32,761 nucleotides of DNA from a virus: the IMG/VR virus record IMGVR_UViG_3300025770_000061, positions 1 to 32,761 of that record; one strand, given 5' to 3'. The notes under the pieces are model-generated. The model was not told the origin of the DNA. It searched no databases and saw nothing but the letters and a program-made list of their open reading frames with translations. Below, in pieces: positions 11,159 through 27,316 of this stretch. The stretch's first letter is position 1; each line of letters opens with the position of its first letter. The translations under genes were made by a program, and so were the position numbers.

Positions 11159-11764
11159 TTATCCGAATGATATTGTCCATCTGAATACTAATGCAAAATC
11201 TGATGTCTTTCTAATATTGCTAAAGTATCTATATGCCGCGAGTACAGAGGTCTCAGTAGCATTTGCTTTTGGATTCTTAATAAACAATCCAATTTCATTT
11301 AAGTTAGCGTCAGTCCTTAAATTATTACAGGAATCCTCGTCAATGAAAATAGTATACCTCACGGTCCTATCATCAACCTTCGTAACCTTACTAAAAGGAA
11401 TCTTGGCATACCACTCACCAGTGGTAGTGGCTACATCGTTTGCCCATCTAAACCCTGATACTACAGCGAGATTACTGTCTCCTGCTCCAACGTACTCTGC
11501 TTGAGAGGATAAAGGCCCCGACAAATCAACAGTTGTCGAAACCTGAAGCGCAGATGCACCGCTAACTCCTAGCTTGACCCTATCGATTTGGTAGTCAGTA
11601 ATAGTATCTGAGCCTACCTTCCCGTAGAGGTGAGCTAAAGCCCATCCGAACCCAGATACGATAACGTTATCCTCATCGTATACAAGCTCCTCCTGACCAT
11701 CAACGACCTTGTGAACCGTTAAGTGTCCTTTTATACCTAATTGACTTGTCAGTGATTTAATCAT
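11159..11764 (-). CDS. Conserved-looking phage tail structural protein, unknown function
   Basis: 201 residues. The ending has the pattern LNEIGLFIKNP followed about 15 residues later by an aromatic-rich strand and then KTSDFALVFRWTISF. I associate this ending with small baseplate or fibre-associated proteins of myoviruses, but cannot name a family. The N-terminus (GHLTVHKVVDGQEELVYDED) looks like beta strands, and no enzyme motif is visible. The ATG overlaps the stop of the 341-residue gene as ATGA, implying translational coupling. Its place between the baseplate wedge genes and the fibre genes suggests a baseplate-to-fibre connector; that is inference from order alone. Confidence 0.65.
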   Translation of the reverse strand: MIKSLTSQLGIKGHLTVHKVVDGQEELVYDEDNVIVSGFGWALAHLYGKVGSDTITDYQIDRVKLGVSGASALQVSTTVDLSGPLSSQAEYVGAGDSNLAVVSGFRWANDVATTTGEWYAKIPFSKVTKVDDRTVRYTIFIDEDSCNNLRTDANLNEIGLFIKNPKANATETSVLAAYRYFSNIRKTSDFALVFRWTISFG

Positions 11765-12786
11765 TTGAAATCGAAATCTAAAGAGATTGTTACGTTGCTA
11801 TCGGTTAACCACTTACCAATTCCGGCCTCTCCGTTACCGTCTCGGTTGTAAAACGCATCGTCCAATATAGTAACTTTAGCCACTAATTTATACTTTCTGA
11901 TATTATTTAGAGCATCCCAACCATAAGGAGGAATTAATGATGAATTCAACATTTCCTTAAGATCTAAGCAATAAACCCCAACGTGCTTAACACCTCCAAA
12001 CGCCGCCATAGAAACAGCATCCCCCTTGTAAAAACTACTCTTAAGAATCATCCTCCCTTCGGAAGGAGTCCTTGAATCAGTAAGGGATGCTACTATAATA
12101 GAACCGTTAGTGAAATCGGTGGTGATGGGCGGTGGAAGCGCAGCTACGGATAAAGGACTAATAGTTAGATACCCATCTTTGTCCATCAACTGATTTCCAT
12201 TGAAAAAGCTACTAACATTTCCGAAATTTATAAGACTTACATCTTTATCGTATAACTGATACCAGTAGGTGGTCGCTGCTCCTGAAGGTGCGAAACCTCC
12301 CACCTTATTCCAAATAGAACTTAACTGAGAGTCTAGAGCAGGGTTTGCATAATGACCTAAATCAGGTAACGCACTCGCATACTGATACCCGGATAGGTTA
12401 GCATTTAATGTTGACCCCCTCTCTAATCTAGTATCGCCTACAGATGGATAGTTTGGAACTGAATCATATGTGGATAAAAACTTAAGATAGGTGCCAGAGG
12501 GGATGTAAGACGAAGCACCACTAGGAGCATCTGAAGCGTAGTTTACTATATTTAGTAAGCCCAAATCATAAGAACTAGCCCCTGAAGCTGAATTTCCATT
12601 AACATATTGAATTGAGTAAATAACGTGAGAATGCTGGACAAATCCTCCTGCATCTTTACCAAAAGCAACAGCTTGGAAAGTAAAATTAGAAGTATCTAGT
12701 ATTGAACTAGCAGCAGGTAAATCAGCCAATGCTGGATTTACAGTTAAAGCGTCAGTTAAAACTTCTCCAAATCCTTGAACAAACAT
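11761..12786 (-). CDS. Baseplate-associated structural protein, unknown family
   Basis: 341 residues, rich in Ser, Ala, Gly and Asn with short beta-like segments. Recognisable stretches are FQAVAFGKDAGGF near the start and GGVKHVGVYCLDLKEML near residue 265. It directly follows the gp7/I-like gene (TAATG overlap) and overlaps the 201-residue gene (ATGA). In T4 the gene after 7 is 8, whose product is 334 residues, so position and length both allow a gp8-type wedge protein. I see no sequence motif that proves this, and many mosaic phages place other connectors here. No signal peptide, membrane segment or catalytic motif is visible. Confidence 0.6.
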   Translation of the reverse strand: MFVQGFGEVLTDALTVNPALADLPAASSILDTSNFTFQAVAFGKDAGGFVQHSHVIYSIQYVNGNSASGASSYDLGLLNIVNYASDAPSGASSYIPSGTYLKFLSTYDSVPNYPSVGDTRLERGSTLNANLSGYQYASALPDLGHYANPALDSQLSSIWNKVGGFAPSGAATTYWYQLYDKDVSLINFGNVSSFFNGNQLMDKDGYLTISPLSVAALPPPITTDFTNGSIIVASLTDSRTPSEGRMILKSSFYKGDAVSMAAFGGVKHVGVYCLDLKEMLNSSLIPPYGWDALNNIRKYKLVAKVTILDDAFYNRDGNGEAGIGKWLTDSNVTISLDFDFK

Positions 12787-15700
12787 TATACGGGAATCCT
12801 AATCTCCGACTTTTTGGCATTGAAGTTGCCGTATGAGACCGTTAACAACTCATCAGGGAATCTATAGTCAATCCTAGACCCACCGTCCGATTCCATTATA
12901 GTCCCGGTCTTAGCCTTGTCTCGACTAGCGTAAGCTACAGCAGCATTCTTACCTGCTATATTATTGAAGTGTTTAAATATATCAAATAGGTCTTGCTTTG
13001 TAAGCTCAACTCGATACTCTTCACATCCTCTCTTAAGATCATCAAGGACACATAAAGGATCGCTCTTAGTTCCTGCTGCGAATATTTCCGACAGCTTCTT
13101 CATGGTCATATCTTGAACGCTCAGGCTCTTGACCAACATAAACTCATCCGGTTGAGCACCAGGAGACATGAAGACCTCAATGACATAATTTTGATTTAAT
13201 CTGTGAAGCTGGTTATTAGCTTTCTGATAATCCCTCGGCAGTAATAATTCTCTGTTACGAGTGTTGAAGGTAACTTTTAGGTTGCTGAAATCATCAAGCC
13301 CTAACCCGATAACAGGGGAGGTTCTATTTTGAGAAACTTGATCTAGGCACGCAAAATTAGAAGTTGAGCTAGTTGATTGAGGATCGTTTGGCCTAGATGC
13401 CACTTGCTGAGTATGGGCATACTTGGTCAACATATCAGATCTAGATATTAATTGGTCATGCTGGATCCAATCGTCGTCAGGAGTAAAGCTCCACATCTTA
13501 CCGTCTTCTGGCTTAGTATGAATCCAGACCCCAACCGACTTACCCCCAATCGTAGTTCCTGAGTCCCTACTAATAACACTACTAAGATTAACTTCAAACT
13601 CATGTTCAGGAGATAAGAAGTTATTGGCGACTGGGTGACCCGATTCAGCAGCATATTTAGAAATATCAAACCTTACTCTACTAGCCGCTCCCACCCCTGA
13701 TCTCAGCAACAGTAAAGTATCATCAAACAAGAAGGGATCTTCGTAGGAAGCTCTTTCAGAGCCTGGAACCTTAATGACGGAGAATGAACTGTCTTCCTCT
13801 GTTCCTGACGTTAGAACCAACTCTACGGCCTCTATAACGCCTGAGGTCACCCTTTCGAAGGTGTCAAGATACATGCTATCATTTGACGAGGCTACGAAAG
13901 ATCCTGCACCCGTAAACAAAGTCCCTGTAACATTAATCTTAATAGGATTAGCAAACGAAGTAGAAACTAGCCCGGTCACACTTCCTAACTTTTCAAAGCC
14001 GTGATTATATAAGAGGGGTCCAAAAGTATGTGAGTATACGTTAGCACCGTCCTGCTCTTGAACTTCAGGGCTTAGACGATGCCATTGGAAGTTATCTTGA
14101 TATAAGTTATAAAGCCTGTGTAAATCTCTACCGAACTCAAAGTTGTAATAGTCATTTACAGAGGCAGGGAACGTATACCTTGGATTATTAGCGTTTGTCG
14201 CGCTAGTTACATAGGAAGTAAACTCACCAGATAGTAACGCTTCAAACTTATAGATAAGGACCCTGAGCGTGGTAATGTTTTGAGCAGTAAGCTCCGTAGG
14301 ATTTAAGGCTTGCAACTCATAATACAAAGCCAACTTAAAGTCCGCTAACTGTTGTATCATCCCAGAAGTGGACAATGTAGTATCAATTAAAGCATTTAAG
14401 TGTTTTTTCTCTTCGCCAATTCTATGCATCGCAGCATAGATTCCTGGAAGCTGCCCTCTATCGGTAGTCCTATCGGTGTTGGCTTGGAAGTTAGCAGCCT
14501 GACCTCTAACGTCCTGGGTATTACTTACGTCATACTCATAGTAGGTGTTGTTTGAATTTAAACCTTCACACTGCGCCCAAATAGGAGGAAGATTAATATG
14601 ATTACTAACTGGGGTATACGAAAGAGAGCTAGGAACAAGACCTAAAGGTATGCCACTTAACCCAGAAGCCATATCAAAGGCAACAGGCATATTAAAACCA
14701 GTCCGATCATAATACCCATTGAAGTCCATTACCTTCTCATAGGATCTTCTTCTAGAAGTATTTCTAGGAACTGAGCCTATACTAGATACATCTATTAACT
14801 CAGGAGAAACAAGGGATTGAGTAGCTGACTTACCTATAACATTACCATTAGGATTGATTCCTCTCTTGTAGGTGTTAAGGTATATGCCTGAGGCAAAAGT
14901 GTTGTTCCCTGCTCCAACGTCTATCTCCTCCCGATCTAAGTAAATGTGAGGTAGACAGCTAGCCTCAAAGCCCATAATATCAGTCTCACCCGAAACCTCT
15001 AAAGAAATTAATGGGATCGCGTGAGCAGGGGAAGCCTTATTAACGGCTTGAGCTATAAAGTTTATTGCGTCCCCGGAGTTAGTTTCATCAAGATTTTTCT
15101 TAGTGAAATCAAACTCAGAAGCTTCAAGAACTAATTTAAAGTGAGAAGACTTACCGGACCAAAGTGAAGCGTAATCAAATCTGTTATCGTTAAGGTTCCG
15201 AATAAGCGTGTCAAGATTTGAAGGAGGATTATAACCTGATGTAAAGATTAACCATGACCCGGCCTTAGGCTCATCGTCAACATTAAGAGCGTTAGAAGTA
15301 ATGTAAGAGCTTACGTCTAACGCAAACTGCTTTCTTACTCCAAAGCAAGCAAGCCTATCCGATATGAACTCAACCATTGGCTGGTCTAGCTCGATGTTCA
15401 CATAGTAAGGATACTCTTCAAATGGGGGAATAGTATAGTCACGGTCCCTGTAAGTAAATACTGAGTCAAACTCATCTTCCCAAGTTTTTAGTGGGAACTT
15501 ATCAGGGAATTGAATGACCGTCTCTTCAAGAATCCTATCTACAGCTAGACGAATATTAGTATCCATGCTGGCAGTAGAGTATGTATCTACATCCATGCTA
15601 CCAGCTAGACTTGCAGTCCAGGTCTGAAAACTCTTGAAATACTTAGACTCAGTAGCTAAAGCATAATAAATAAGATAAGGGACATAAGACTCCCAAAGCT

Positions 15701-16820
15701 CAGTGACCCTACTTTCAATAGGGAAGACATCCTTAGGAAACACAGTACCAACCGTGCTTTGAATTGATTTCTTAGTTCCAATTGCCTTATAAATACTGAC
15801 GGCATTTCTTAGTTGCAATCTCCATCTTTCGGGCTTATTACCAAACAAATCCCAACCTATAAGTTGTGCTATTAGTGGGAGATACTCATCTGGGCAATCA
15901 TCAATATCGTAGAGTGTAGAGATCTCTTCAGTCTCGTTACTCATATCATAAGCAAAGAAAGATAGTGCTCTAATTAACCTAGCGAAGGGACCATCCTCAA
16001 CTTTAGTAGTAGACTTTAAATCACTCTCTAAGTAAACTTCAAATTTATCTCTAACCCTAAAGTCGGAATTATCTGAGAATAGAGGAGAGTAAATAACGTC
16101 ATTCCATGTCTTAAATTTATCTAACTGTTGGGTCCCGCTTAAATCATACCTGGACCCACTGGCGAAAAGAGCAGAAGGATAATAAGCCCCAGATGCATTA
16201 CGCCACAAGTGTTCCGACAACCCATTAATACCGTCACTCGTTCTTACAGGGTACCCTTGATACAAACTGCTAACTAAAAGACCCTTCACATAGGAGGAAG
16301 GAGAATAGCTATCACCAGAAGTATTAAGGAAATACATCCAAGACAAGTTATTAATCAAGTAGTTGTGAATAGCAGAGGAATCCCCTATGTCAGAAAAAAC
16401 GGTAGTATCAGGAGAGTTAAGGGTTAGAGCCGGAAGTAAGGTGCTCTCAGCGTAAGTCGAGAATTCCTCTTGAGATTGGAAGTCCTTGAAGTTAGTATTA
16501 AAGTAAGTTAGAACCCTGTCTTCAAAGTTTTGAGTAGTAATGTTAGTGAGATTGTTCTGCTTTACAAAGAAAGGAACAATACCACTTAAAGAATTAATAC
16601 CACTATACACAGAGTCTGCAACGGCACTTACATTTAATATAGAAGAAAAATTAGCGGCAACATCCAAATGAGAGTTGATGATTAAATCAATAGGATCCTC
16701 AGCTTTAGCAGTAGTCTCCCTATCATCTTCATACAAATACCCTGGAAGGATGTATTTGATAGCCTCAAAGTAATCCCGCTTGAAGAAGTTTTGATTCCTT
16801 AAATAAGTCTTGCCTGACAT
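12786..16820 (-). CDS. Giant baseplate wedge protein with P2 gpI / T4 gp7-like region
   Basis: 1344 residues. Residues about 300-360 match the phage tail protein I pattern: acidic YDIDDCPDEYLPLIAQLIGW, then RWRLQLRNAVSIYKAIGTKKS. This is the segment that joins the J/gp6 protein in contractile baseplates. The gene directly follows the gp6/J-like gene with a TAATG overlap, the same order as T4 6-7 and P2 J-I. T4 gp7 is 1032 residues and P2 gpI about 180, so this is an enlarged version. The long part after about residue 500 is Asn/Ser/Gly-rich and I cannot assign it; it may form outer wedge or fibre-docking domains. The first 120 residues contain FFKRDYFEAIKYILPGY, a plausible conserved N-terminus. 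The wedge role is well supported by motif plus order. Confidence 0.75.
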   Translation of the reverse strand: MSGKTYLRNQNFFKRDYFEAIKYILPGYLYEDDRETTAKAEDPIDLIINSHLDVAANFSSILNVSAVADSVYSGINSLSGIVPFFVKQNNLTNITTQNFEDRVLTYFNTNFKDFQSQEEFSTYAESTLLPALTLNSPDTTVFSDIGDSSAIHNYLINNLSWMYFLNTSGDSYSPSSYVKGLLVSSLYQGYPVRTSDGINGLSEHLWRNASGAYYPSALFASGSRYDLSGTQQLDKFKTWNDVIYSPLFSDNSDFRVRDKFEVYLESDLKSTTKVEDGPFARLIRALSFFAYDMSNETEEISTLYDIDDCPDEYLPLIAQLIGWDLFGNKPERWRLQLRNAVSIYKAIGTKKSIQSTVGTVFPKDVFPIESRVTELWESYVPYLIYYALATESKYFKSFQTWTASLAGSMDVDTYSTASMDTNIRLAVDRILEETVIQFPDKFPLKTWEDEFDSVFTYRDRDYTIPPFEEYPYYVNIELDQPMVEFISDRLACFGVRKQFALDVSSYITSNALNVDDEPKAGSWLIFTSGYNPPSNLDTLIRNLNDNRFDYASLWSGKSSHFKLVLEASEFDFTKKNLDETNSGDAINFIAQAVNKASPAHAIPLISLEVSGETDIMGFEASCLPHIYLDREEIDVGAGNNTFASGIYLNTYKRGINPNGNVIGKSATQSLVSPELIDVSSIGSVPRNTSRRRSYEKVMDFNGYYDRTGFNMPVAFDMASGLSGIPLGLVPSSLSYTPVSNHINLPPIWAQCEGLNSNNTYYEYDVSNTQDVRGQAANFQANTDRTTDRGQLPGIYAAMHRIGEEKKHLNALIDTTLSTSGMIQQLADFKLALYYELQALNPTELTAQNITTLRVLIYKFEALLSGEFTSYVTSATNANNPRYTFPASVNDYYNFEFGRDLHRLYNLYQDNFQWHRLSPEVQEQDGANVYSHTFGPLLYNHGFEKLGSVTGLVSTSFANPIKINVTGTLFTGAGSFVASSNDSMYLDTFERVTSGVIEAVELVLTSGTEEDSSFSVIKVPGSERASYEDPFLFDDTLLLLRSGVGAASRVRFDISKYAAESGHPVANNFLSPEHEFEVNLSSVISRDSGTTIGGKSVGVWIHTKPEDGKMWSFTPDDDWIQHDQLISRSDMLTKYAHTQQVASRPNDPQSTSSTSNFACLDQVSQNRTSPVIGLGLDDFSNLKVTFNTRNRELLLPRDYQKANNQLHRLNQNYVIEVFMSPGAQPDEFMLVKSLSVQDMTMKKLSEIFAAGTKSDPLCVLDDLKRGCEEYRVELTKQDLFDIFKHFNNIAGKNAAVAYASRDKAKTGTIMESDGGSRIDYRFPDELLTVSYGNFNAKKSEIRIPV

Positions 16821-18427
16821 TAAACGTAATCTACCCGTATGGCTAAGTTATTTAGCTGGATGATTTCATTAAACCCAACCTTAATAGGCTTTTCAACGTT
16901 AGTAACCTCTGCATACCTAATGTTGGTCTCATCCATTAATAAAATTCTAATTAAATCTTGAGGAACAAACGGCTCTGAGAAGTCAGTGTTATCAATATTC
17001 ATATAGTTTAATATTGATCTCCGAGCAGATTGAATTAATTGGGCTTCGCTTCTTCTAAACTTCTCGTCTAAAGTAATAGTAACGACTACGTCCAATGTCC
17101 TAACAAGCCCATCAACCACCACAACCTCGTCCGTAAGCATCTTCTTAGACTCTGTTGCTGCCAATAACTGACGCTTATACTCCTGAGTTGCACGCCTAAG
17201 TTGACTGTTCGAAGCTCTCTCTAGAACAAATAAGTCAATAATGTTAGCGGAAGAAAAAGCTCTTCTAACAGTTGCGGTCGCTTTACCTGTGGAACCATAG
17301 TTAGATGCAAAAGAATTAGCAAATGCTTTAAAGTCTTGAAGAGTTACTAGACGATCTTGAGTTCTAAAGTAAAGAGGGGCATATCTCTTAGCCTGATCCA
17401 CAGATTCAGCGTCTCGTCCTCCGGTAGCTAGACTGGTATTCTCAACCCTCGCGGTTGGGATAACGTCGGTGAGAGTGCCATCTGTGGAACTTACAATGGT
17501 CTGAGCATTAATAAGACTCTCGGCAATATTCCCACGGGTTCCACCTCCAACACGATAAGTTACTATGTAAGTATCACCCATAGCAGGGGATTTACCTAGC
17601 GAGTCATCTCCAAACAACACAGAGGCTTTAAAATTCTCATCAGTAGTAATTTGAAATACCTTATCTGCCTGACCAGAAGCAAAGTATACGTTCTCTTCTT
17701 CCTTGTAAATTCCTTCAGTCGTAGGATCTCCAGTCAAATACACTTGAGCACTTTTTTCAACATAAGGGAACCGGGATAAGTTAATAGACTTAACAGCCTC
17801 AGGACTCGTGAAAACTCCCAACTCAGAAACTAACGCCCCTTCAAGTAATACCACATCCGTAATTTGAACAGTCCCTCCCGTTGCAGATACATTGAATTGT
17901 AAATCTTCGCTGGCTACAGTAAGATCTACAGTGCCATTTGAGTTAACCTTGTATAAGGTATATGTTAGAGTGCCGCCATCCTCAGGGGAAGTTATCGTAA
18001 TTACTCTACTAGCCGCAGGGATAGTTACGGATGTAGGAGAGGTAACATTGTCTGTGGAGTAAGTAATGGAAGCGTTAGCAGCCGCAGAGATTGGACCTTT
18101 CATCCTTATGCCAATAACTTCAAGAAGCCTCTTTACACTGTCGCGGCTTCTAGCGGTGCCTATGAAGTTTTCGTTGGCAAGGTAATCAGACTTATTCGAT
18201 TGAATATGACCTACCGCTGCCATCATCTCTATTAGCAAAACTCCAAAGTCTGAACTCTCAAAGTTATTATAATCTAAAGGAAAGGTAGCCTTTACATATT
18301 TTAAAAGAGTTGCTTTAATAGTTTCAAAGTCGGAGGCAGAGTAATCAATTAACTTTTGCTTATTATCAAGTTTAGACGGTATTAATTTTAAAAAATCTGA
18401 TTCAACTGTTCCTGAAAAGGCTACCAT
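16820..18427 (-). CDS. 6: Baseplate wedge protein, T4 gp6 / P2 gpJ (baseplate J) family
   Basis: 535 residues (T4 gp6 is 660). The N-terminus shows the gp6 layout: YNNFESSDFGVLLIEMMAAVGH (about 53-74) followed by YLANENFIGTARSRDSVKRL. Near residue 342 it has the J-family signature AKRYAPLYFRTQDRLVTLQD. In contractile tails this protein dimerises to form the inner ring of the baseplate around the hub and links the wedges. It sits between gp25-like and gp7-like genes with TAATG overlaps on both sides, as in T4 and P2. No truncation or missing segment is evident apart from the shorter length. Confidence 0.88.
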   Translation of the reverse strand: MVAFSGTVESDFLKLIPSKLDNKQKLIDYSASDFETIKATLLKYVKATFPLDYNNFESSDFGVLLIEMMAAVGHIQSNKSDYLANENFIGTARSRDSVKRLLEVIGIRMKGPISAAANASITYSTDNVTSPTSVTIPAASRVITITSPEDGGTLTYTLYKVNSNGTVDLTVASEDLQFNVSATGGTVQITDVVLLEGALVSELGVFTSPEAVKSINLSRFPYVEKSAQVYLTGDPTTEGIYKEEENVYFASGQADKVFQITTDENFKASVLFGDDSLGKSPAMGDTYIVTYRVGGGTRGNIAESLINAQTIVSSTDGTLTDVIPTARVENTSLATGGRDAESVDQAKRYAPLYFRTQDRLVTLQDFKAFANSFASNYGSTGKATATVRRAFSSANIIDLFVLERASNSQLRRATQEYKRQLLAATESKKMLTDEVVVVDGLVRTLDVVVTITLDEKFRRSEAQLIQSARRSILNYMNIDNTDFSEPFVPQDLIRILLMDETNIRYAEVTNVEKPIKVGFNEIIQLNNLAIRVDYV

Positions 18428-18870
18428 TATATTCTAACTCCAATGTTAAACGCCGTCGCAATAGCATCTCTAATAGAGCAGAAAAGATTAACCTTCAACT
18501 GCCCGCTTCGAGTTTCAAATACTTGAATCTTTCCTACCGAAACTGTGCTAAGGTATCTACGTATGGAGGTTAAAACTTCCCCTTTTATCAATGAAAAAGT
18601 AGCTTCATCTAAAGGTTCCATAAGGAATCTACGAAGATTGCAACCATATTCAGGTAGCATAAACCTCTCACCTCTTTCAGTTCTAATTAGACAACTAAGA
18701 TTGGACTTTATTAACTCAAGATTAGTGGATTTACTAAAATACCCATTAATAGGGTTTACAGGTACTGGGTAATTTAATCCAATTAACTTTGGGTCTTTTA
18801 AAACAGTAGACCTTTGAATGACAGAAGGAGCCACCGTCCCATACATCTTTACATTGTTTGAAATTGCCAT
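18427..18870 (-). CDS. 25: Baseplate wedge protein, T4 gp25 / P2 gpW family
   Basis: 147 residues (T4 gp25 is 132). The core RTERGERFMLPEYGCNLR followed by FLMEPLDE (63-88) is the characteristic gp25/gpW signature, in which the Glu-Pro-Leu part helps start sheath assembly at the baseplate. The C-terminal half has the expected alternating strands. AAGGGG precedes the ATG at 18870, which is 15 bases after the glycoside hydrolase gene. The stop overlaps the gp6-like start as TAATG, so the two are very likely co-translated. Confidence 0.92.
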   Translation of the reverse strand: MAISNNVKMYGTVAPSVIQRSTVLKDPKLIGLNYPVPVNPINGYFSKSTNLELIKSNLSCLIRTERGERFMLPEYGCNLRRFLMEPLDEATFSLIKGEVLTSIRRYLSTVSVGKIQVFETRSGQLKVNLFCSIRDAIATAFNIGVRI

Positions 18871-18885
18871 GTTTAACTAATCCCC

Positions 18886-21033
18886 TTAAAATATTGAGAA
18901 GTCTGGGTTCACATCCGTTGCGTACTTTTGTAGTTTATACATACAAACAGCAAGTGTGTCTATTACATCCGCATAATATGTATCATACTCTTCCCAATCA
19001 ATATCATCCATTTGTGGGTTAGCTGGGGGAGGGTCCGTTGTGTAATAACAACTATTATTATTATCATGACATAGGAAGGCAGATGCGTCATATGTTGTTA
19101 ATCCCGTAATAACCCTGCCATCAACATAAGGGTGATTCCTAAGTTGTCCGTTCACTGCGGCACTAAAAGCCAGTCTATCCTCAACCGATACGACCTCATG
19201 AACCCCTGATAAGTCATCATAAACTGTGCCATAAAGTGATTCCTGTAAGACATCGGGGCGGGGGAAGATGCCAGATGCCGCAAATAAAGTTCTCGTAAGC
19301 AATATAAGAACCTTACCCATATACCTGACTTGAGCATTCCTAGCATCGTATTTATCCGAAGTTGGATCGACGCTATAAGATGCAAGAGAGGGCAACGAGG
19401 ATAAGGTGAAGAAAGCATCGTAGCAATCCTTCATGGTGAAGTTATCCGCAGCTAAATTCCACACGGGTTGGGGAGGAAATTTACCCTGATTTTTAGTCAG
19501 GCTGGGAGAGTAAATACTACCCATTATATCATAATACCTATAAGCATTTAGATTCAAAAGTCCTGGGTTTATAAACTGCGAAAAGGCCTGGGTCAGGCCT
19601 CCACCAAAGGAGTTGTAAAACATGTCCCTAACGAGAGTCCAATTACTCTCAGTATAACCAGAGTAAGAAGGTTGATAACTCACATGCTCAGGCAACACAC
19701 CTATTCCACTTGCCCCTTCTATGACATTTTTAAAAACACCCGAAGTATATCCGTTGAAATCTAAGTCTTCCGTGGATGGACTCTTTTGAATAATCTTACG
19801 GAGTTGCCTCCTGGAGTAGTCCCACTGTTCGGAGGCAAGGTCCTGGTATGCTGATAGATCAAGACTTCTTCTACATTCGCCATCGCCATAGAGTATGCCT
19901 TGAGAAGCGATGAAAGGGTTACGAGAGCCGTTACGATCACTAAAACCTTGGTAGATCAGACCTCCAAAGTTTTTATCTCTATGTAACGCTCTGATTACTT
20001 CCCTAGGGTAATTTATCGAAGGGTAATTAGAAGCCTCGTTATACATTGCGGGTAACCTCGTGTCGTAAGACCCAGAAACCCCGTCACGAACATACTTTTT
20101 CAGGTAGTAAATAGCATTACCATAAGTATGTAGTGAAGCAAAGTCTACCGTAGAGGAAAACTGATAAAAAGGACTAACCCCACCTAGGGCAGGATCCGTT
20201 TGATGTAGATGAAATTGCCCCGGATCAAACCCCGCGCCATTCCCAAAAGTTGTCTTTATAAAGGGATACTTATCCATAACATATAGAGATGTTCCTGAGG
20301 TTAAGATCCTAAAGTAAGGCATAAGGGCATCATCAGTTTCGTTCTGGACATCAAAACTCCACATTGATTGGTAGGATGAGACGGAGCTAGCTAACGCATC
20401 GATATAAGGTTTCGCTTTAGTTTCAAAAAAATTAGTTGCCGCTGCCGGTGAGGAAGTTTCAAATAATAAAGGAGAATTTATCCAGTAAGACCCTACACCC
20501 GCAGCCCCAGACGGGCCTGCTAATCCATAAGGAATCACTCCTGAGAGTTCGGATTCCGTTGTTGGCTCCCCAGTACCAGCGTCTCCGCCGTAGCCCATTA
20601 CGTTCAGTTGATCCCACAAAACAAACTGAACCCTTACTTTATACTTATCGCATATTGATAGGAAGTTTTTAATATCTGATAAATGATCATCTTTATAAAC
20701 CCAAACATAGTAATCCAAGAAAACTCTAACAGCGTTAAGTCCATTTAACGCGATAATACTAATTCCGTTCTCAGCATCCTCAGGGTTATAATGCCACCAT
20801 TGAGCCGTTTTATTGGTGCCTACAAAACAATCCGAGGGGGCATACTGCGTTAAGGGGACATACTGCGCTAAGCCCAAGGTTGATAGTAATGTCCAAGTTT
20901 CCGGTCTTATTTTTGGAAGGTAACCGTGTTTTTTCCATTGTGATTCTAAAGGAATATTAAAATTTACTCCTCTACAATTAGTAAAGTATCTTTCGGATCC
21001 GTCAGGAATATCGGGTTGTATTGGCTTAGACAT
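18886..21033 (-). CDS. Clan GH-A (GH5-like) glycoside hydrolase, virion-associated
   Basis: 715 residues. The N-terminal 400 residues fit a TIM-barrel glycoside hydrolase of clan GH-A. ALNGLNAVRVFLDYY (95-109) resembles strand beta-2, with the conserved Arg at 103. WSFDVQNETDD places the acid/base Glu at about 232 after Asn231. SLHTY (300-304) fits strand beta-6, and RLPAMYNEASNY places the nucleophile Glu at about 333. GGLIYQGFSD (357-366) fits strand beta-8. The two glutamates are about 100 residues apart, as in GH5-type enzymes. The substrate is unknown, probably a host surface polysaccharide. The C-terminal 300 residues are unassigned. No signal peptide is seen. The TAATG overlap with the LamG-type gene and location between spike and gp25 genes imply a virion component rather than a metabolic enzyme. 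Confidence 0.75.
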   Translation of the reverse strand: MSKPIQPDIPDGSERYFTNCRGVNFNIPLESQWKKHGYLPKIRPETWTLLSTLGLAQYVPLTQYAPSDCFVGTNKTAQWWHYNPEDAENGISIIALNGLNAVRVFLDYYVWVYKDDHLSDIKNFLSICDKYKVRVQFVLWDQLNVMGYGGDAGTGEPTTESELSGVIPYGLAGPSGAAGVGSYWINSPLLFETSSPAAATNFFETKAKPYIDALASSVSSYQSMWSFDVQNETDDALMPYFRILTSGTSLYVMDKYPFIKTTFGNGAGFDPGQFHLHQTDPALGGVSPFYQFSSTVDFASLHTYGNAIYYLKKYVRDGVSGSYDTRLPAMYNEASNYPSINYPREVIRALHRDKNFGGLIYQGFSDRNGSRNPFIASQGILYGDGECRRSLDLSAYQDLASEQWDYSRRQLRKIIQKSPSTEDLDFNGYTSGVFKNVIEGASGIGVLPEHVSYQPSYSGYTESNWTLVRDMFYNSFGGGLTQAFSQFINPGLLNLNAYRYYDIMGSIYSPSLTKNQGKFPPQPVWNLAADNFTMKDCYDAFFTLSSLPSLASYSVDPTSDKYDARNAQVRYMGKVLILLTRTLFAASGIFPRPDVLQESLYGTVYDDLSGVHEVVSVEDRLAFSAAVNGQLRNHPYVDGRVITGLTTYDASAFLCHDNNNSCYYTTDPPPANPQMDDIDWEEYDTYYADVIDTLAVCMYKLQKYATDVNPDFSIF

Positions 21034-23630
21034 TAGACTATATTAATAGGTTCCCACATGAGATTAGGAACATCAACGTTTTTGAAGAATCTCTGAGTTG
21101 CTTTATAGTTATTTAATACCGCTCCGTCCTCAAGAGGCTTTGAGTAGAATCTGGTGCAGCCTACATAGCCTCGAAGACCACTTACCTTACCTCCATACTC
21201 GCCTCCCATAAAGTTACCTCCAGAGAAACCATCAGTGTATCCTCCTCCAATAACCCAAGGAGTAAAGTAATTATCCAGATAAGGACCCCCTGAATACTCG
21301 AAAGAGTTGTTTTGTTTTATAGAAGGAGCTTTAAAGGTCTCACCTTTTCGAGAAGTTCCGAAGGTATCTTGGTAGCTTGAGGTGGCTAGCTTAATGCCGT
21401 CTGCGTATACTCTAACTTCGTCCATCTTAGGGTCAACTGCTACAGAGATCTGAACAAAGGACCTACCACAGGCTGATAGTGATTTACCATTAAACTCCTC
21501 AAACACAGGTATGGACATCCCGTGGTAAGAATTTTTCTCACAGTTTGTTCTCTTTGCAATAAACCCAGCACTGGAGGAGTCATAAGATTGTGTCGGAGCT
21601 AGAGTTAAGACAAGGTTATCAGTAGGGTTCTGACCGTTATCATTACTCGGATCCAAGTTAGATGTAAATCTCCTGTCCCTCGTAAATCCAAGAATTACAC
21701 CTCTAACGACCCCTGTGCCATTATCTATGCTCATATTATCAATGCTAGCTTGGGGTTCTTTCGAGTCAGATATTCCTACATTCTCATTAGCGAGTAAAAG
21801 CCTATACAGACCCAAGGTATCATTACCATGCATATTCCAACCCTGCGTGGTTCCATCTAGGTGAGGCACATGTACCCAAGTCTCAAAGGTGCCGCCTTCT
21901 GCATTATAAAGAAAGTCTTGGAACTCCGAAGTCTCAGGCATCTTCGCATACGTCCCCATGAAATCAATATCAGAAGATCCTTGAGCCGGGAAGGCAACAC
22001 CACTTAGGAACGGAATACCTAAACCCTTGTTAAATATAGTTGGAGCATCCCCTACCATCTGAGAGTTAGAACCTACGCCTAGCCTGCTAGAGTTGTGAAC
22101 TCCAAAGTTGGTGCCAGAAGGAACGTCAGTCTCAACCGTTAAATAATTATAAAGTGCAAACAAGCCATCTTCCACAATTCTAGTATTGATTTGTAGACTT
22201 TGAGCAGAAGGTTCAGGTGGGCTAGCTACCGTCTCACCCTTAGCTACATTCGCCAATAGGATGTGATCAAGGAATACTGAATCATTTGTATTGATCTTCT
22301 CAGTAAACTTAACTTCTAATGGAAGAATAACACCTGTGACATCAGCCTGATCGAGAACAATACTTCTTTGGTTTTCAATATCCAAAAGGAAATTAGATCC
22401 TGCTAAGTAGGAGAAGTCATTAATTGGAACGTTGCCAGGAGTAAATTGAGGTCCCCTTCCTAAGCAAGTAGGAACCTTAACAGCTAACTCAATTTGCTTC
22501 TTACGCTTATTGACCCTGTCCTGGAACTGGGCTGTCTCAGAAAGCATAACCTGACGCATGTTATCAGTAATTGCAAGGGAAGCCCCATCATCAATTAGCT
22601 CCTGTAGTTCAGACGAGACATCGAATACTCTCCTATCCTTCTGCCCTTCCAAGCTTAATAACAGATCATCCTGATCATAGAAATTTGTAACACCAGGGGA
22701 ATTATCAATTATATCAGGATCTAGAATGGTGTTGAAATAGTATCTTAGATCGTTTCTTGTTAAAGGTATACCCCTACCACCCAGGCTAGGATCAAACTCA
22801 AGCTTCCAAAGCTCACCATTGGAGAACCCACCTTCCTTAAATCTAAGATCTTCTTCTCTTTCTTCCAACTCAAGGAGAGCAGGAGCTATACCACTTAACT
22901 GCGAGTCATAGTATAATCCATCAACAGAAAGCACAAACTTACCTGATCTAGATTGAGGTGGGCCTGCTTCAAGACGGAAAACGGATTCAACGACTTCGGG
23001 TGTCGCTTGTGGCTCTAACGAAGGATTCAATGTCCTATCCAGAAGAGTAGCGTCAATGTTAGTTAACTGATTACTACACCTGTTCGAGAACGCAGTAGCG
23101 GTTGCTAACTGTTCTGAGTAGACGGAAAGCTCACCATTCAGTAAGTTTGCGTAAGCGGTTGCATCATTGCCTGCTAGAGCTATACGTTGCTGCGCGAGTC
23201 CTCCTCCTTTATTTTTAAAGCTGTCCGCAAACGACTTGACACAATCTATCAGTGATTGAATCTCTTCAATGAATTCTAAAAGTTCTTCAAGAACTTTCAT
23301 AAAAGCAACAAGCGCACCAGCGATTGTGCTAAGAAGGTCTATGCCAAACCTAGAAAAGTCGGAAAAGACAGAATAAAAGCCATCCCGGTCAGGGAACCAT
23401 GATAATCCTAAAATATCTCTAACAGTATTTTGAATTTTCCTAATAGCGGACAGTGACCATTCTTCAGCCTTCTTTATTGCGTCACGGATCGCAATTAAAA
23501 TCGGACTAGGGATAAGTGCTAACGCTGCTGGTAATAAATCCAGCATACAAGGAGGTATGCCAAAAGTAGAAGTTAAAGCTACCCCCTCTAAAGTAGTTAA
23601 CGGGAGTATTGGCTCTTCGTGTTGCGACAT
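21033..23630 (-). CDS. Virion protein with C-terminal LamG / concanavalin A-like domain
   Basis: 865 residues. Residues about 580-850 have the layout of a LamG or concanavalin A-like lectin fold: GGTFETWVHVPHLDG at the start, SFVQISVAVDPKMDEVRVYADG in the middle (the usual strand-turn-strand before the ligand face), and RGYVGCTRFYSKPLEDG near the end. The N-terminal 130 residues hold two hydrophobic helical stretches (about 25-52 and 93-130), and the middle has Glu/Leu-rich helix such as LLELEEREEDLRF. The C-terminal fold commonly binds carbohydrate. It overlaps the spike gene before it and the glycoside hydrolase gene after it (both TAATG), so the lectin-like and hydrolase proteins probably act together at the baseplate tip or side. 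The partner relation is inference. Confidence 0.65.
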   Translation of the reverse strand: MSQHEEPILPLTTLEGVALTSTFGIPPCMLDLLPAALALIPSPILIAIRDAIKKAEEWSLSAIRKIQNTVRDILGLSWFPDRDGFYSVFSDFSRFGIDLLSTIAGALVAFMKVLEELLEFIEEIQSLIDCVKSFADSFKNKGGGLAQQRIALAGNDATAYANLLNGELSVYSEQLATATAFSNRCSNQLTNIDATLLDRTLNPSLEPQATPEVVESVFRLEAGPPQSRSGKFVLSVDGLYYDSQLSGIAPALLELEEREEDLRFKEGGFSNGELWKLEFDPSLGGRGIPLTRNDLRYYFNTILDPDIIDNSPGVTNFYDQDDLLLSLEGQKDRRVFDVSSELQELIDDGASLAITDNMRQVMLSETAQFQDRVNKRKKQIELAVKVPTCLGRGPQFTPGNVPINDFSYLAGSNFLLDIENQRSIVLDQADVTGVILPLEVKFTEKINTNDSVFLDHILLANVAKGETVASPPEPSAQSLQINTRIVEDGLFALYNYLTVETDVPSGTNFGVHNSSRLGVGSNSQMVGDAPTIFNKGLGIPFLSGVAFPAQGSSDIDFMGTYAKMPETSEFQDFLYNAEGGTFETWVHVPHLDGTTQGWNMHGNDTLGLYRLLLANENVGISDSKEPQASIDNMSIDNGTGVVRGVILGFTRDRRFTSNLDPSNDNGQNPTDNLVLTLAPTQSYDSSSAGFIAKRTNCEKNSYHGMSIPVFEEFNGKSLSACGRSFVQISVAVDPKMDEVRVYADGIKLATSSYQDTFGTSRKGETFKAPSIKQNNSFEYSGGPYLDNYFTPWVIGGGYTDGFSGGNFMGGEYGGKVSGLRGYVGCTRFYSKPLEDGAVLNNYKATQRFFKNVDVPNLMWEPINIV

Positions 23631-24745: not shown

Positions 24746-24765
24746 CCACTATTATAAAATAGTGG
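24746..24765 (-). other. Intercistronic RNA hairpin at the hub stop codon
   Basis: Perfect 8-bp stem (CCACTATT with AATAGTGG) and a 4-base loop; the TAA stop of the hub gene lies across the loop and stem. It is followed by TATCTCAACACC rather than a run of T, so it does not look like a rho-independent terminator. RNA processing, message stabilisation or control of spike translation are possible. Confidence 0.6.
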
Positions 24766-27316
24766 GGATTTGTGATGATCCTGTAGAAGATATGGAATCA
24801 AGTATATCATCATAAACCTTGACCCTAGCAGCATCCTCCGCAGCTAAGGGCGTAAAGTCTAGCATTTTTCCTATTTGAACTTTAAGTTGAGAGGCAGGTA
24901 TTATGTTATTCTGGAAGAGTTTAAACTCCGAGTAAGCGTCATCAGGTGTAATAACGTGCTTATACCCATAGATCCCATACCTATTTGAATACATTGAAGG
25001 GGGAGGTAAATCCTCCTCACGAAAAGTAGAACCTATAATTTTATTAGGGACCCCCACTAATAAGCAATCCCTCTTCAGGTAATTAACAATATTAAAAAAA
25101 GGAAGAGTTCGAATGTTTACTTCATGAGTATAACCAATAGCCCTCCTTAAAAGGTCTGCATTAGATTTAGTTGTGTTTCCCTTAGTGGGTATTTTTAAGC
25201 CTCCAACGCCTGAACTTGTCGCCCTCAAAATATCAAAAAAGTAATAAGAATCTAACCCGCTGACACCTTCCTCTTTAATCATCTTTAGAGCAACTGTATC
25301 ATTATTTATAGTGTCTACGATTTCGGAAGGACCGAGTGATGATGCATCCCCACCATACTTATTTTTTAAATACTTAAAAATTTTAAAATCAGGAGCCAAC
25401 TCCGCTTTATTAGCAGCCAGATCAATTAACTTATAGGAAAGTTCAGCATTTAGGTTTAGTAGTTCTGCCCTGTAAGGACTAGCATCCACGGTTAGCTCTA
25501 TAACATTAGAGTTCTTGAGATTGTGCATAAAAACTAAACTATCAGTAGTTATTTTTTTTCTAAACCGATACTCATAAGGTCCGAAGTCTATCTCTTCACC
25601 AAAGGAAGAAGTAATCCCTCTGACAAAAGGATTCAACTCCTTTAATTCCTCTCGATAAGCAGTCCATTTGGCTTTAAGGTCGCGGCGTGAGTCACCATAA
25701 CTGAATACCGGGTCGTCAATATTCTCAGGAAGTCCCCCGGTGAGTGTATAGATTAGATTTTTAATTATGTCTTCATCGCCTATAAATAATACCGGGTCGG
25801 TTGGGTTAGTTATTAACCCATGCTTATGGAGAAGCTTAGTAGTATTTATATTGTTTTCTTCAAATATAGTAGGTTGAATTTTAGTTTCAGATACTTCGTT
25901 TAAAGTTTTAAAAAAGGTATATAACGGTGAGAGAAGCTCTAGCTTTTCACCAACTACCTTATCCGTTGGTACATCCACCGCCATTTCAAGGATGACCGAT
26001 GGGGGGGCTGTGGATGCCTTACCTGCATTGCTTGTACTATCAGGATTGCAGAATAATTTTTGGGCGGCGCGGAGTGCGACATTCTCTTGGACACCTTTCC
26101 TCAAAAAATTTCCAGTGATCAATCCACCAATTTTTATAGATGTAGTTAATTCGCTTTTCCCTTCGGAATATACCCTAATTGCTTCTAAGTCCTTCTCAAG
26201 CAACTTTATCTGGTTTTCAACATTTATTATTTGTTCTTTAGAAAGTTTAGAATAATTTCGGCTACCACCAGTAACTCCTGGAAGCGTGCCTTTAAGTTCA
26301 GCTATCTTATCCTTGATAGGCTTTCTAGCTATGTCCTCCTTAGCCCTATCTCTTTTTTTCTGTTCCTCGCTTCTGCTACCGCCCGCGAAAATACCTATAC
26401 CGAATTCTCTTAACTTAGCTTGATAAGTGCTGATAATATCACTGTAAGGCTTGGCTTTAACAACGATTGGTCCGTCTTCCTCAGCATCTAAATCCTGATC
26501 AAATAATACCAGGATATTACCAATAGAAACCGATTTACGTATGCCGAATAGGTATTCTCGAATTAATCTCCTAATTGCATTATTCCAAGAATCACCGTCC
26601 TTATTTGGCTTTAAAACTTTGCGTAGTGAACCGTCTGTTTCCGGTGCCACAGGCACCAAAATACTTTTATCATACGTCACCTTATCAGCAATTGCCGCGA
26701 GGGTGTCAAAGCTACTCTTCTTCTTTTTTTCAGTGAGATTGGCAAGTAATACTTTATTTGAAAATAATTTTATTGTCTCTTGAGTAGGTGTAAATGTTAA
26801 TTCAAGGGTTCTAATGCCGTCAAAATCCACACTCAAAACGGTATCCATTAAACTTACACAATAAGGACCTGACCACTTACTAATATCATCCCCAACCCCG
26901 TAAGAAATATAATAATCAGGTCTAACCGACATAACCTCATTCAAAAACTGATTATCCGCCTTATCCCCTAGGTTTGCGATTCTCTTTTTAAATTCGTTTA
27001 TAACGACCTCCGAAACCCCGTCCGTAGGTATTACGAATCTTTCAAGCACCCTAGCAGTTTCAACTAATTTTATAGTAGTAAAGGTTGAGGTGCCTCCTCC
27101 ATTCATCTCAGTCTCAAAACTTAAAAAGTCAGAGTTATTGTAGGGAGATATTAAGATGTCATCAGCAAGGTCACCTAAATCTTCAAATGATTGAAGTAAG
27201 TCTCTACGAGTCTGCCCAAGTCCACCATTAGAAGGCACTGCGGTATCAAAGAATAACCTATCAATAGCCTCTTTGGATTGAGTTACTATTAAATTGTATG
27301 TGAATGACTTACTCAT
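24752..27316 (-). CDS. Large baseplate hub protein candidate
   Basis: 854 residues. Its place between the gp53-like and spike genes is where contractile phages keep the hub (T4 gp27, P2 gpD). The N-terminal part includes SGPYCVSLMDTVLSVDFDG followed by LELTFTPT (about 148-180), a strand-rich segment compatible with a hub domain. Around 315-400 there is a Lys/Glu-rich helical region (EEQKKRDRAKEDIARKPIKD) that probably forms a coiled coil. The C-terminal part contains RTLPFFNIVNYLKRDCLLVGV. It is more than twice the length of T4 gp27 (391), so if it is the hub it carries insertions. No protease or lysozyme motif is visible. The start overlaps the gp53-like stop as ATGA. I hold the hub call as likely from order rather than from a decisive motif. 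Confidence 0.6.
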   Translation of the reverse strand: MSKSFTYNLIVTQSKEAIDRLFFDTAVPSNGGLGQTRRDLLQSFEDLGDLADDILISPYNNSDFLSFETEMNGGGTSTFTTIKLVETARVLERFVIPTDGVSEVVINEFKKRIANLGDKADNQFLNEVMSVRPDYYISYGVGDDISKWSGPYCVSLMDTVLSVDFDGIRTLELTFTPTQETIKLFSNKVLLANLTEKKKKSSFDTLAAIADKVTYDKSILVPVAPETDGSLRKVLKPNKDGDSWNNAIRRLIREYLFGIRKSVSIGNILVLFDQDLDAEEDGPIVVKAKPYSDIISTYQAKLREFGIGIFAGGSRSEEQKKRDRAKEDIARKPIKDKIAELKGTLPGVTGGSRNYSKLSKEQIINVENQIKLLEKDLEAIRVYSEGKSELTTSIKIGGLITGNFLRKGVQENVALRAAQKLFCNPDSTSNAGKASTAPPSVILEMAVDVPTDKVVGEKLELLSPLYTFFKTLNEVSETKIQPTIFEENNINTTKLLHKHGLITNPTDPVLFIGDEDIIKNLIYTLTGGLPENIDDPVFSYGDSRRDLKAKWTAYREELKELNPFVRGITSSFGEEIDFGPYEYRFRKKITTDSLVFMHNLKNSNVIELTVDASPYRAELLNLNAELSYKLIDLAANKAELAPDFKIFKYLKNKYGGDASSLGPSEIVDTINNDTVALKMIKEEGVSGLDSYYFFDILRATSSGVGGLKIPTKGNTTKSNADLLRRAIGYTHEVNIRTLPFFNIVNYLKRDCLLVGVPNKIIGSTFREEDLPPPSMYSNRYGIYGYKHVITPDDAYSEFKLFQNNIIPASQLKVQIGKMLDFTPLAAEDAARVKVYDDILDSISSTGSSQIPTIL

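Follow-up and report, generated by a model that had tools for sequence, protein, structure and literature searches.

Which part do two large genes play when they stand between the spike gene and the gp25 gene of a viral baseplate operon? This question is raised by the window analysed here, a fragment of 32.8 kb from an uncultured virus whose tail genes are encoded on the minus strand. We propose that the product of one of them, a 715-aa protein, is a virion-borne clan GH-A glycoside hydrolase, falling outside the GH5 profile cut-off, at a dedicated, optional position of a T4-like baseplate, a reading to which we assign a probability of roughly 0.6.

The baseplate operon and the LamG-type protein

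The minus-strand order runs from a 649-aa protein, a 310-aa protein, a 96-aa gp53-like protein and an 854-aa protein to the spike, and continues with the 865-aa LamG-type protein, the 715-aa hydrolase, gp25, gp6, gp7, a 341-aa gene and large downstream genes (Table 1). The two large genes between spike and gp25 reported by the first-pass annotation are indeed there, and the TAATG overlaps it had noted were found at both the spike-LamG and the LamG-hydrolase junctions, the latter being retained in several relatives; this arrangement supports translational coupling to the virion genes. Since the larger contigs of the same group encode a T4-type Gp23 capsid protein and a sheath protein, we regard the lineage as T4-like. 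Comparison of gp6 with cultured phages returned remote T4-like wedge proteins only, all below 60% identity. A tblastn search with the window hydrolase, two of its relatives and two LamG-type proteins gave no match in 50,697 phage records, and PHROGs gave no useful match for the 715-aa hydrolase or the 865-aa LamG-type protein. Two clues to the host come from where related loci were found, one of them in a metagenome bin labelled Altibacter (Flavobacteriaceae) and the other, a remote one, in a Prochlorococcus single-cell assembly; either could be a contaminating virus.

Some further observations concern the neighbouring genes. Between the window and contig L002, identity is only 72% in the 854-aa protein encoded ahead of the spike (window 24752-27316) and 99-100% in its neighbours, the 96-aa gene and the spike; the 854-aa gene is a second exchange hotspot. 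The 341-aa gene after gp7 (window 11761-12786) has a sub-threshold NlpC/P60 match (E 0.098), its product being a possible baseplate cell-wall peptidase. L021, L022 and L051 have a shortened or split gp7-type protein of 777 aa, against about 1340 aa elsewhere, and in L051 a 1404-aa gp7-like gene comes after it.

Table 1. Coordinates in the window of the slot protein, its candidate catalytic codons and the adjoining baseplate genes
Feature	Position	Strand	Basis
GH-A-type slot protein, 715 aa	18886..21033	-	ORF; GH5-like barrel, Z 22.3; 20-sequence family alignment
Residues 1-410, (beta/alpha)8 barrel	19804..21033	-	Structure prediction and fold comparison
Glu232 codon, candidate acid/base, NE motif after strand 4	20338..20340	-	Model, alignment
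Glu333 codon, candidate nucleophile, end of strand 7	20035..20037	-	Model, alignment
Residues 411-715, C-terminal region	18889..19803	-	Low pLDDT
LamG-type baseplate protein, 865 aa, lineage-wide	21033..23630	-	29 homologues; relatives on 340 contigs
Residues 482-858, ConA-like jelly roll	21057..22187	-	Structure prediction and fold comparison
Spike, OB-domain protein, 363 aa	23630..24721	-	Weak Phage_base_V match, 0.022, at 4-60
Hydrolase-gp25 gap, 15 nt, with GGGG	18871..18885	-	Sequence
gp25/W wedge protein	18427..18870	-	Pfam GPW_gp25 PF04965, 2.5e-10
gp6-type wedge protein	16820..18427	-	phrog_219, 2.7e-40
gp7/I-type wedge protein	12786..16820	-	Tail_P2_I, 2.7e-5

The LamG-type protein is predicted to form, in its residues 482-858, a ConA-like two-sheet jelly roll (Z 15.8-17.2), matching for instance GH43 AbnA domain 4 (Z 16.1), a likeness of fold that does not imply function. 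Toxin receptor-binding domains headed the list of similar folds and were set aside, as they resemble the protein through the common jelly roll only. The earlier description as LamG/ConA-like holds for the fold, in a domain longer than the residues 580-850 first proposed, but not for the family profile, since Pfam Laminin_G_3 (PF13385) gave no match in the window. With a mean column identity of 64% across its 29 homologues and a relative encoded on 340 contigs, the protein is a slowly changing baseplate component of the lineage, with or without the hydrolase.

Predicted fold and active site of the 715-aa hydrolase

The AlphaFold2 model of the hydrolase, built on an alignment of 20 sequences, has a mean pLDDT of 53.8, with values of 82-92 around strand 4 and lower ones near strand 7. 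It is a beta/alpha barrel with strands at residues 22-24, 101-105, 134-138, 224-230, 260-263, 298-304 and 329-334, in which N231-E232 come directly after strand 4, with E333 at the end of strand 7. A clan GH-A hydrolase with Glu232 and Glu333 as catalytic residues was what the first-pass annotation had proposed, and both the barrel and the glutamates at strands 4 and 7 are present in the predicted structure and the alignment. GH5 mannosidases and mannanases come closest among solved folds, with Z 20 to 22.3 over about 280 residues; the top match has Z 22.3 and an rmsd of 3.1 over 285 residues, and all 1000 second-look chains scored a Z of at least 5. Among the 15 glutamates of the first 410 residues, only E232 and E333 are invariant in the seven family members that carry this pair (clade E/E, see below). 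The pairwise identity of these members is mostly 25-37%, rising to 61-95% among the window, L002 and L001, and R103, N231, E232, H302, Y304 and E333 are invariant throughout. The conserved set of GH5 enzymes comprises Arg, a strand-3 His, Asn-Glu, His-x-Tyr, Glu and Trp; the strand-3 position occupied by His in GH5 is apparently Asp141 in the hydrolase, and the strand-8 Trp is present in some members only.

Profile comparison with GH-A enzymes of Flavobacteriaceae gave an E-value of 7e-14 and aligned N231-E232 to the cellular NEP. The GH5 profile itself (Pfam PF00150) had no match to the window hydrolase up to E 1, nor did any other GH family of Pfam match it, so the designation as a GH5-like enzyme stands for the fold and not for the profile; in the family, 8 of the 20 members match weakly (best E 0.00025), and L061 reaches 19 bits against a cut-off of 23.5. 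Sequence searches of solved structures with the hydrolase and LamG-type alignments produced chance-level matches only, and no obvious signal peptide was seen by eye in the hydrolase. From sequence and prediction, the 715-aa protein is shown to have a predicted clan GH-A fold with an intact catalytic constellation.

Occupants of the LamG-gp25 junction

The junction was read in 155 related loci, taken from the best 80 of 340 matches and from other queries, a sample whose proportions are biased towards relatives of the window. In this sample, 56 distinct loci have an empty junction, the LamG-type and gp25 genes abutting (-4 to 37 nt), and 22 have an occupied one, always with a member of the hydrolase family; a slot holding solely an unrelated gene was found in none of the surveyed junctions. 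Because the LamG-type protein is conserved in empty and occupied loci alike, we consider it a baseplate part of the lineage and the hydrolase an optional one. Extra genes accompany the hydrolase in the slot on the minus strand behind it (4 of the 22) or on the plus strand before it (L146 only). The minus-strand gene is convergent and lies in the hydrolase-gp25 interval (L045:6158-8539, L049:6113-8539, L057:6409-8478, L080:10034-12103), encoding 689-808 aa on the opposite strand of an otherwise one-directional baseplate operon; it has relatives in L048, L054 and L032, and no family was identified for it (alignment A4). The plus-strand gene ahead of the hydrolase-like slot gene (L146:4533-6602, 689 aa) has no relatives in the set.

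Placed on the gp6 tree, the state of the slot requires 14 changes, although the barrel clades are coherent. The sister of the window, L011, is 93% identical in gp6, yet has an occupant of another clade (K/A, see below); DNA similarity between the two breaks off roughly 33 nt inside the hydrolase gene, to return exactly at the gp25 start codon, with one 88-nt match between these breakpoints. L027 and L028 differ by 4 substitutions in gp6 and by none in gp25, and their occupants are very different. L020 and L060 have the same gp25 and gp6 sequences but differ strongly in the spike, the LamG-type gene and the barrel, and similarity climbs again behind the barrel; here a recombination breakpoint lies within the slot protein. 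These comparisons show exchange of the slot between close relatives, and of the two large genes the hydrolase alone is insert-like. The first-pass view of two genes inserted in the core operon must be corrected in this respect, given that the LamG-type gene is present in the 56 loci with an empty junction.

Amino-acid change at the locus was followed with contig IMGVR_UViG_3300038306_000096 (L087), which is near-identical to the window over the spike, the LamG-type gene, gp25 and gp6. These four genes together carry 12 substitutions over 1910 codons (9 synonymous, 3 nonsynonymous), with no amino-acid change in the 865 codons of the LamG-type protein, whereas the hydrolase differs by 55 substitutions in 714 codons, 50 of them nonsynonymous and 5 synonymous, plus in-frame indels (Fisher p 8e-6 for the ratio and 9e-21 for the density, against the flanks). 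For this one contig pair the nonsynonymous share exceeds the neutral expectation (binomial p 0.006), and without codons 50-59 the counts are 34 nonsynonymous and 2 synonymous. Within the barrel, changes fall at 50-59, at 148-205 (between strand 3 and the long helix after it) and at 303 and 310 (end of strand 6), with none in strands 4 or 7; they appear to lie largely at substrate-side loop positions, where the confidence of the model is low. We take this as signs of positive selection on the hydrolase, from one contig pair, the hydrolase genes of the close E/E contigs L139, L140 and L144 being identical and hence uninformative on selection. A diversity-generating retroelement was set aside as the source, since the substitutions are not adenine-specific, as was an imported divergent allele, since there are just 5 synonymous changes and the next relative, L001, is synonymous-saturated.

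The barrel tree has three clades (support 100, 100 and 81/88). Clade E/E (the window, L002, L001, L009, L058, L110 and L139, with L144 equal to L139) keeps N231, E232, H302, Y304 and E333 without exception. Clade K/A consists of ten proteins of 1295-1330 aa with Lys and Ala at the catalytic positions, the H-x-Y lost, and a conserved additional C-terminal module of about 640 residues. In clade D/D, L045, L049, L057 and L080 have D/D and L146 has N/D, usually together with the convergent extra gene. As cellular relatives carry both glutamates, loss is the simpler direction, and we infer that the catalytic pair was lost in two of the three clades, not gained. The barrels of the inactive clades show dN/dS of about 0.06-0.4 where it could be estimated, and this purifying selection suggests that they retain some role. 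Such barrels lend weight to an alternative in which the slot protein is a pseudo-glycosidase, mainly a structural or glycan-binding baseplate part, with catalysis incidental even in the clade of the window: the pair is lost in K/A (ten proteins), D/D (four) and N/D (L146) while the same slot is kept, and Y16, N19, R21 and G22, near the N-terminus, are conserved across all clades. We regard it as unlikely, however, since the active-site residues of the window's clade have remained invariant at mostly 25-37% identity, with most other positions variable.

The C-terminal module of clade K/A has invariant N404, D406, G429, D430 and D431 (NxD...GDD). In hhalign against Flavobacteriaceae GH28, the NxD and GDD motifs were aligned at a probability of 14% and E 0.002 (controls 0.25 and 0.94); one K/A member has a weak GH49N Pfam match (0.004), and a GH49 family search of 198 Bacteroidota genomes gave a single, sub-threshold match. 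The module is a suspected beta-helix hydrolase of GH28/GH49-like type. L027 and L061 are 97% identical in the barrel and 46% in the C-terminus, L028 and L061 64% in the barrel and 100% in the C-terminus, and these mismatched identities indicate that barrel and module recombine. A broader reading, which we offer tentatively and at somewhat less than even odds, is that a glycosidase barrel became a modular part fitted to the baseplate, active in one clade, twice reduced to a dead mount and once, in dead form, fused to a second, beta-helix-like hydrolase, with barrel, module and slot recombining freely. If true, the lineage would offer a natural series of enzyme-to-scaffold transitions within one group of viruses.

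Proposed role and comparison with known systems

In the role that we favor, the hydrolase would be assembled onto the baseplate, adjoining the LamG-type protein, and at attachment would cut host capsular or exopolysaccharide by a two-glutamate retaining mechanism, which may open the way to the outer membrane. Fast amino-acid change in substrate-side loops and slot swapping would both follow differences in glycans between hosts. Where the barrel lacks catalytic residues, as in other members, it is probably a mount or a glycan binder, and the C-terminal module joined to it in clade K/A is a further candidate enzyme. Because it is swapped, fast-changing and has twice lost its catalytic residues, the hydrolase looks like an exchangeable tool against the host sugar coat, and the surface-polysaccharide breaching role raised by the first-pass annotation is plausible on the sequence and model evidence.

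As expected of a virion-associated polysaccharide depolymerase, the gene is coded among tail and baseplate genes, at the LamG-gp25 position in 22 of 22 occupied loci. This fixed place, with an overlap inside the baseplate operon, and the fact that inactive barrels are kept there make it decidedly improbable that the protein is a soluble, non-virion depolymerase, made late and freed at lysis to aid the spread of progeny through biofilm, even if GH-A enzymes can work without assembly and neither virion proteomics for the lineage nor a cultured relative was found. Least probable is a dedicated breaching pair, the enzyme and lectin-like protein acting as one module as first proposed, for although the genes are adjacent and TAATG-coupled and the partner has a ConA-like fold, the LamG-type protein stays conserved at empty junctions and, with 0 amino-acid against 50 nonsynonymous changes, the two are not diversifying together.

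Exchangeable depolymerases are known mainly as tailspikes. The present case is a contractile-tail baseplate with an optional site next to gp25 for one enzyme-fold family; the lineage could reveal which glycan its phages must cut and how an enzyme becomes a virion mount, and the content of the slot might predict host range in metagenomes.

With GH5 beta-mannosidases and mannanases (PDB 4nrr, 4lyp, 1uuq, 3ziz), the hydrolase shares the barrel (Z 20-22, about 280 residues), the two glutamates (one following strand 4, the other at strand 7) and the H-x-Y before the nucleophile; it differs in its identity of 11-14%, the missing Pfam GH5 match, Asp141 in strand 3, an additional C-terminal region of 300 residues and the phage baseplate context. 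Among hydrolases that are separate structural proteins attached to a baseplate, the closest precedent appears to be the GH25 enzyme Gp255 from Bacillus phage BpSp (PMC4870245). Unlike the slot hydrolase, it acts on cell-wall extracts and its gene lies elsewhere in the genome, and the available text of that report describes neither slot exchange nor inactive relatives (PMC4870245). For the evolutionary pattern, the nearest precedent in the available texts is module exchange in tailspike depolymerases, where a conserved N-terminal anchor is followed by a distal catalytic part and polysaccharide-acting modules are likewise exchanged on a conserved tail (PMC12692247, PMC11414711); in contrast to tailspikes as described there, it is the N-terminal part of the slot protein that has a glycosidase-like barrel, active or inactive, directly beside gp25. 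BFVD entries labelled GH5 or glycosyl hydrolase (Pseudomonas phage POR1, Erwinia phage phiEaP8, Lactobacillus phage Bacchae) also have a barrel hydrolase fold, at 10-13% identity to the slot hydrolase and with weak Foldseek E-values, and a search of the available literature found no TIM-barrel phage depolymerase. The present system is set apart by its location next to gp25, by a slot filled from one enzyme-fold family and by having sister clades that are inactive.
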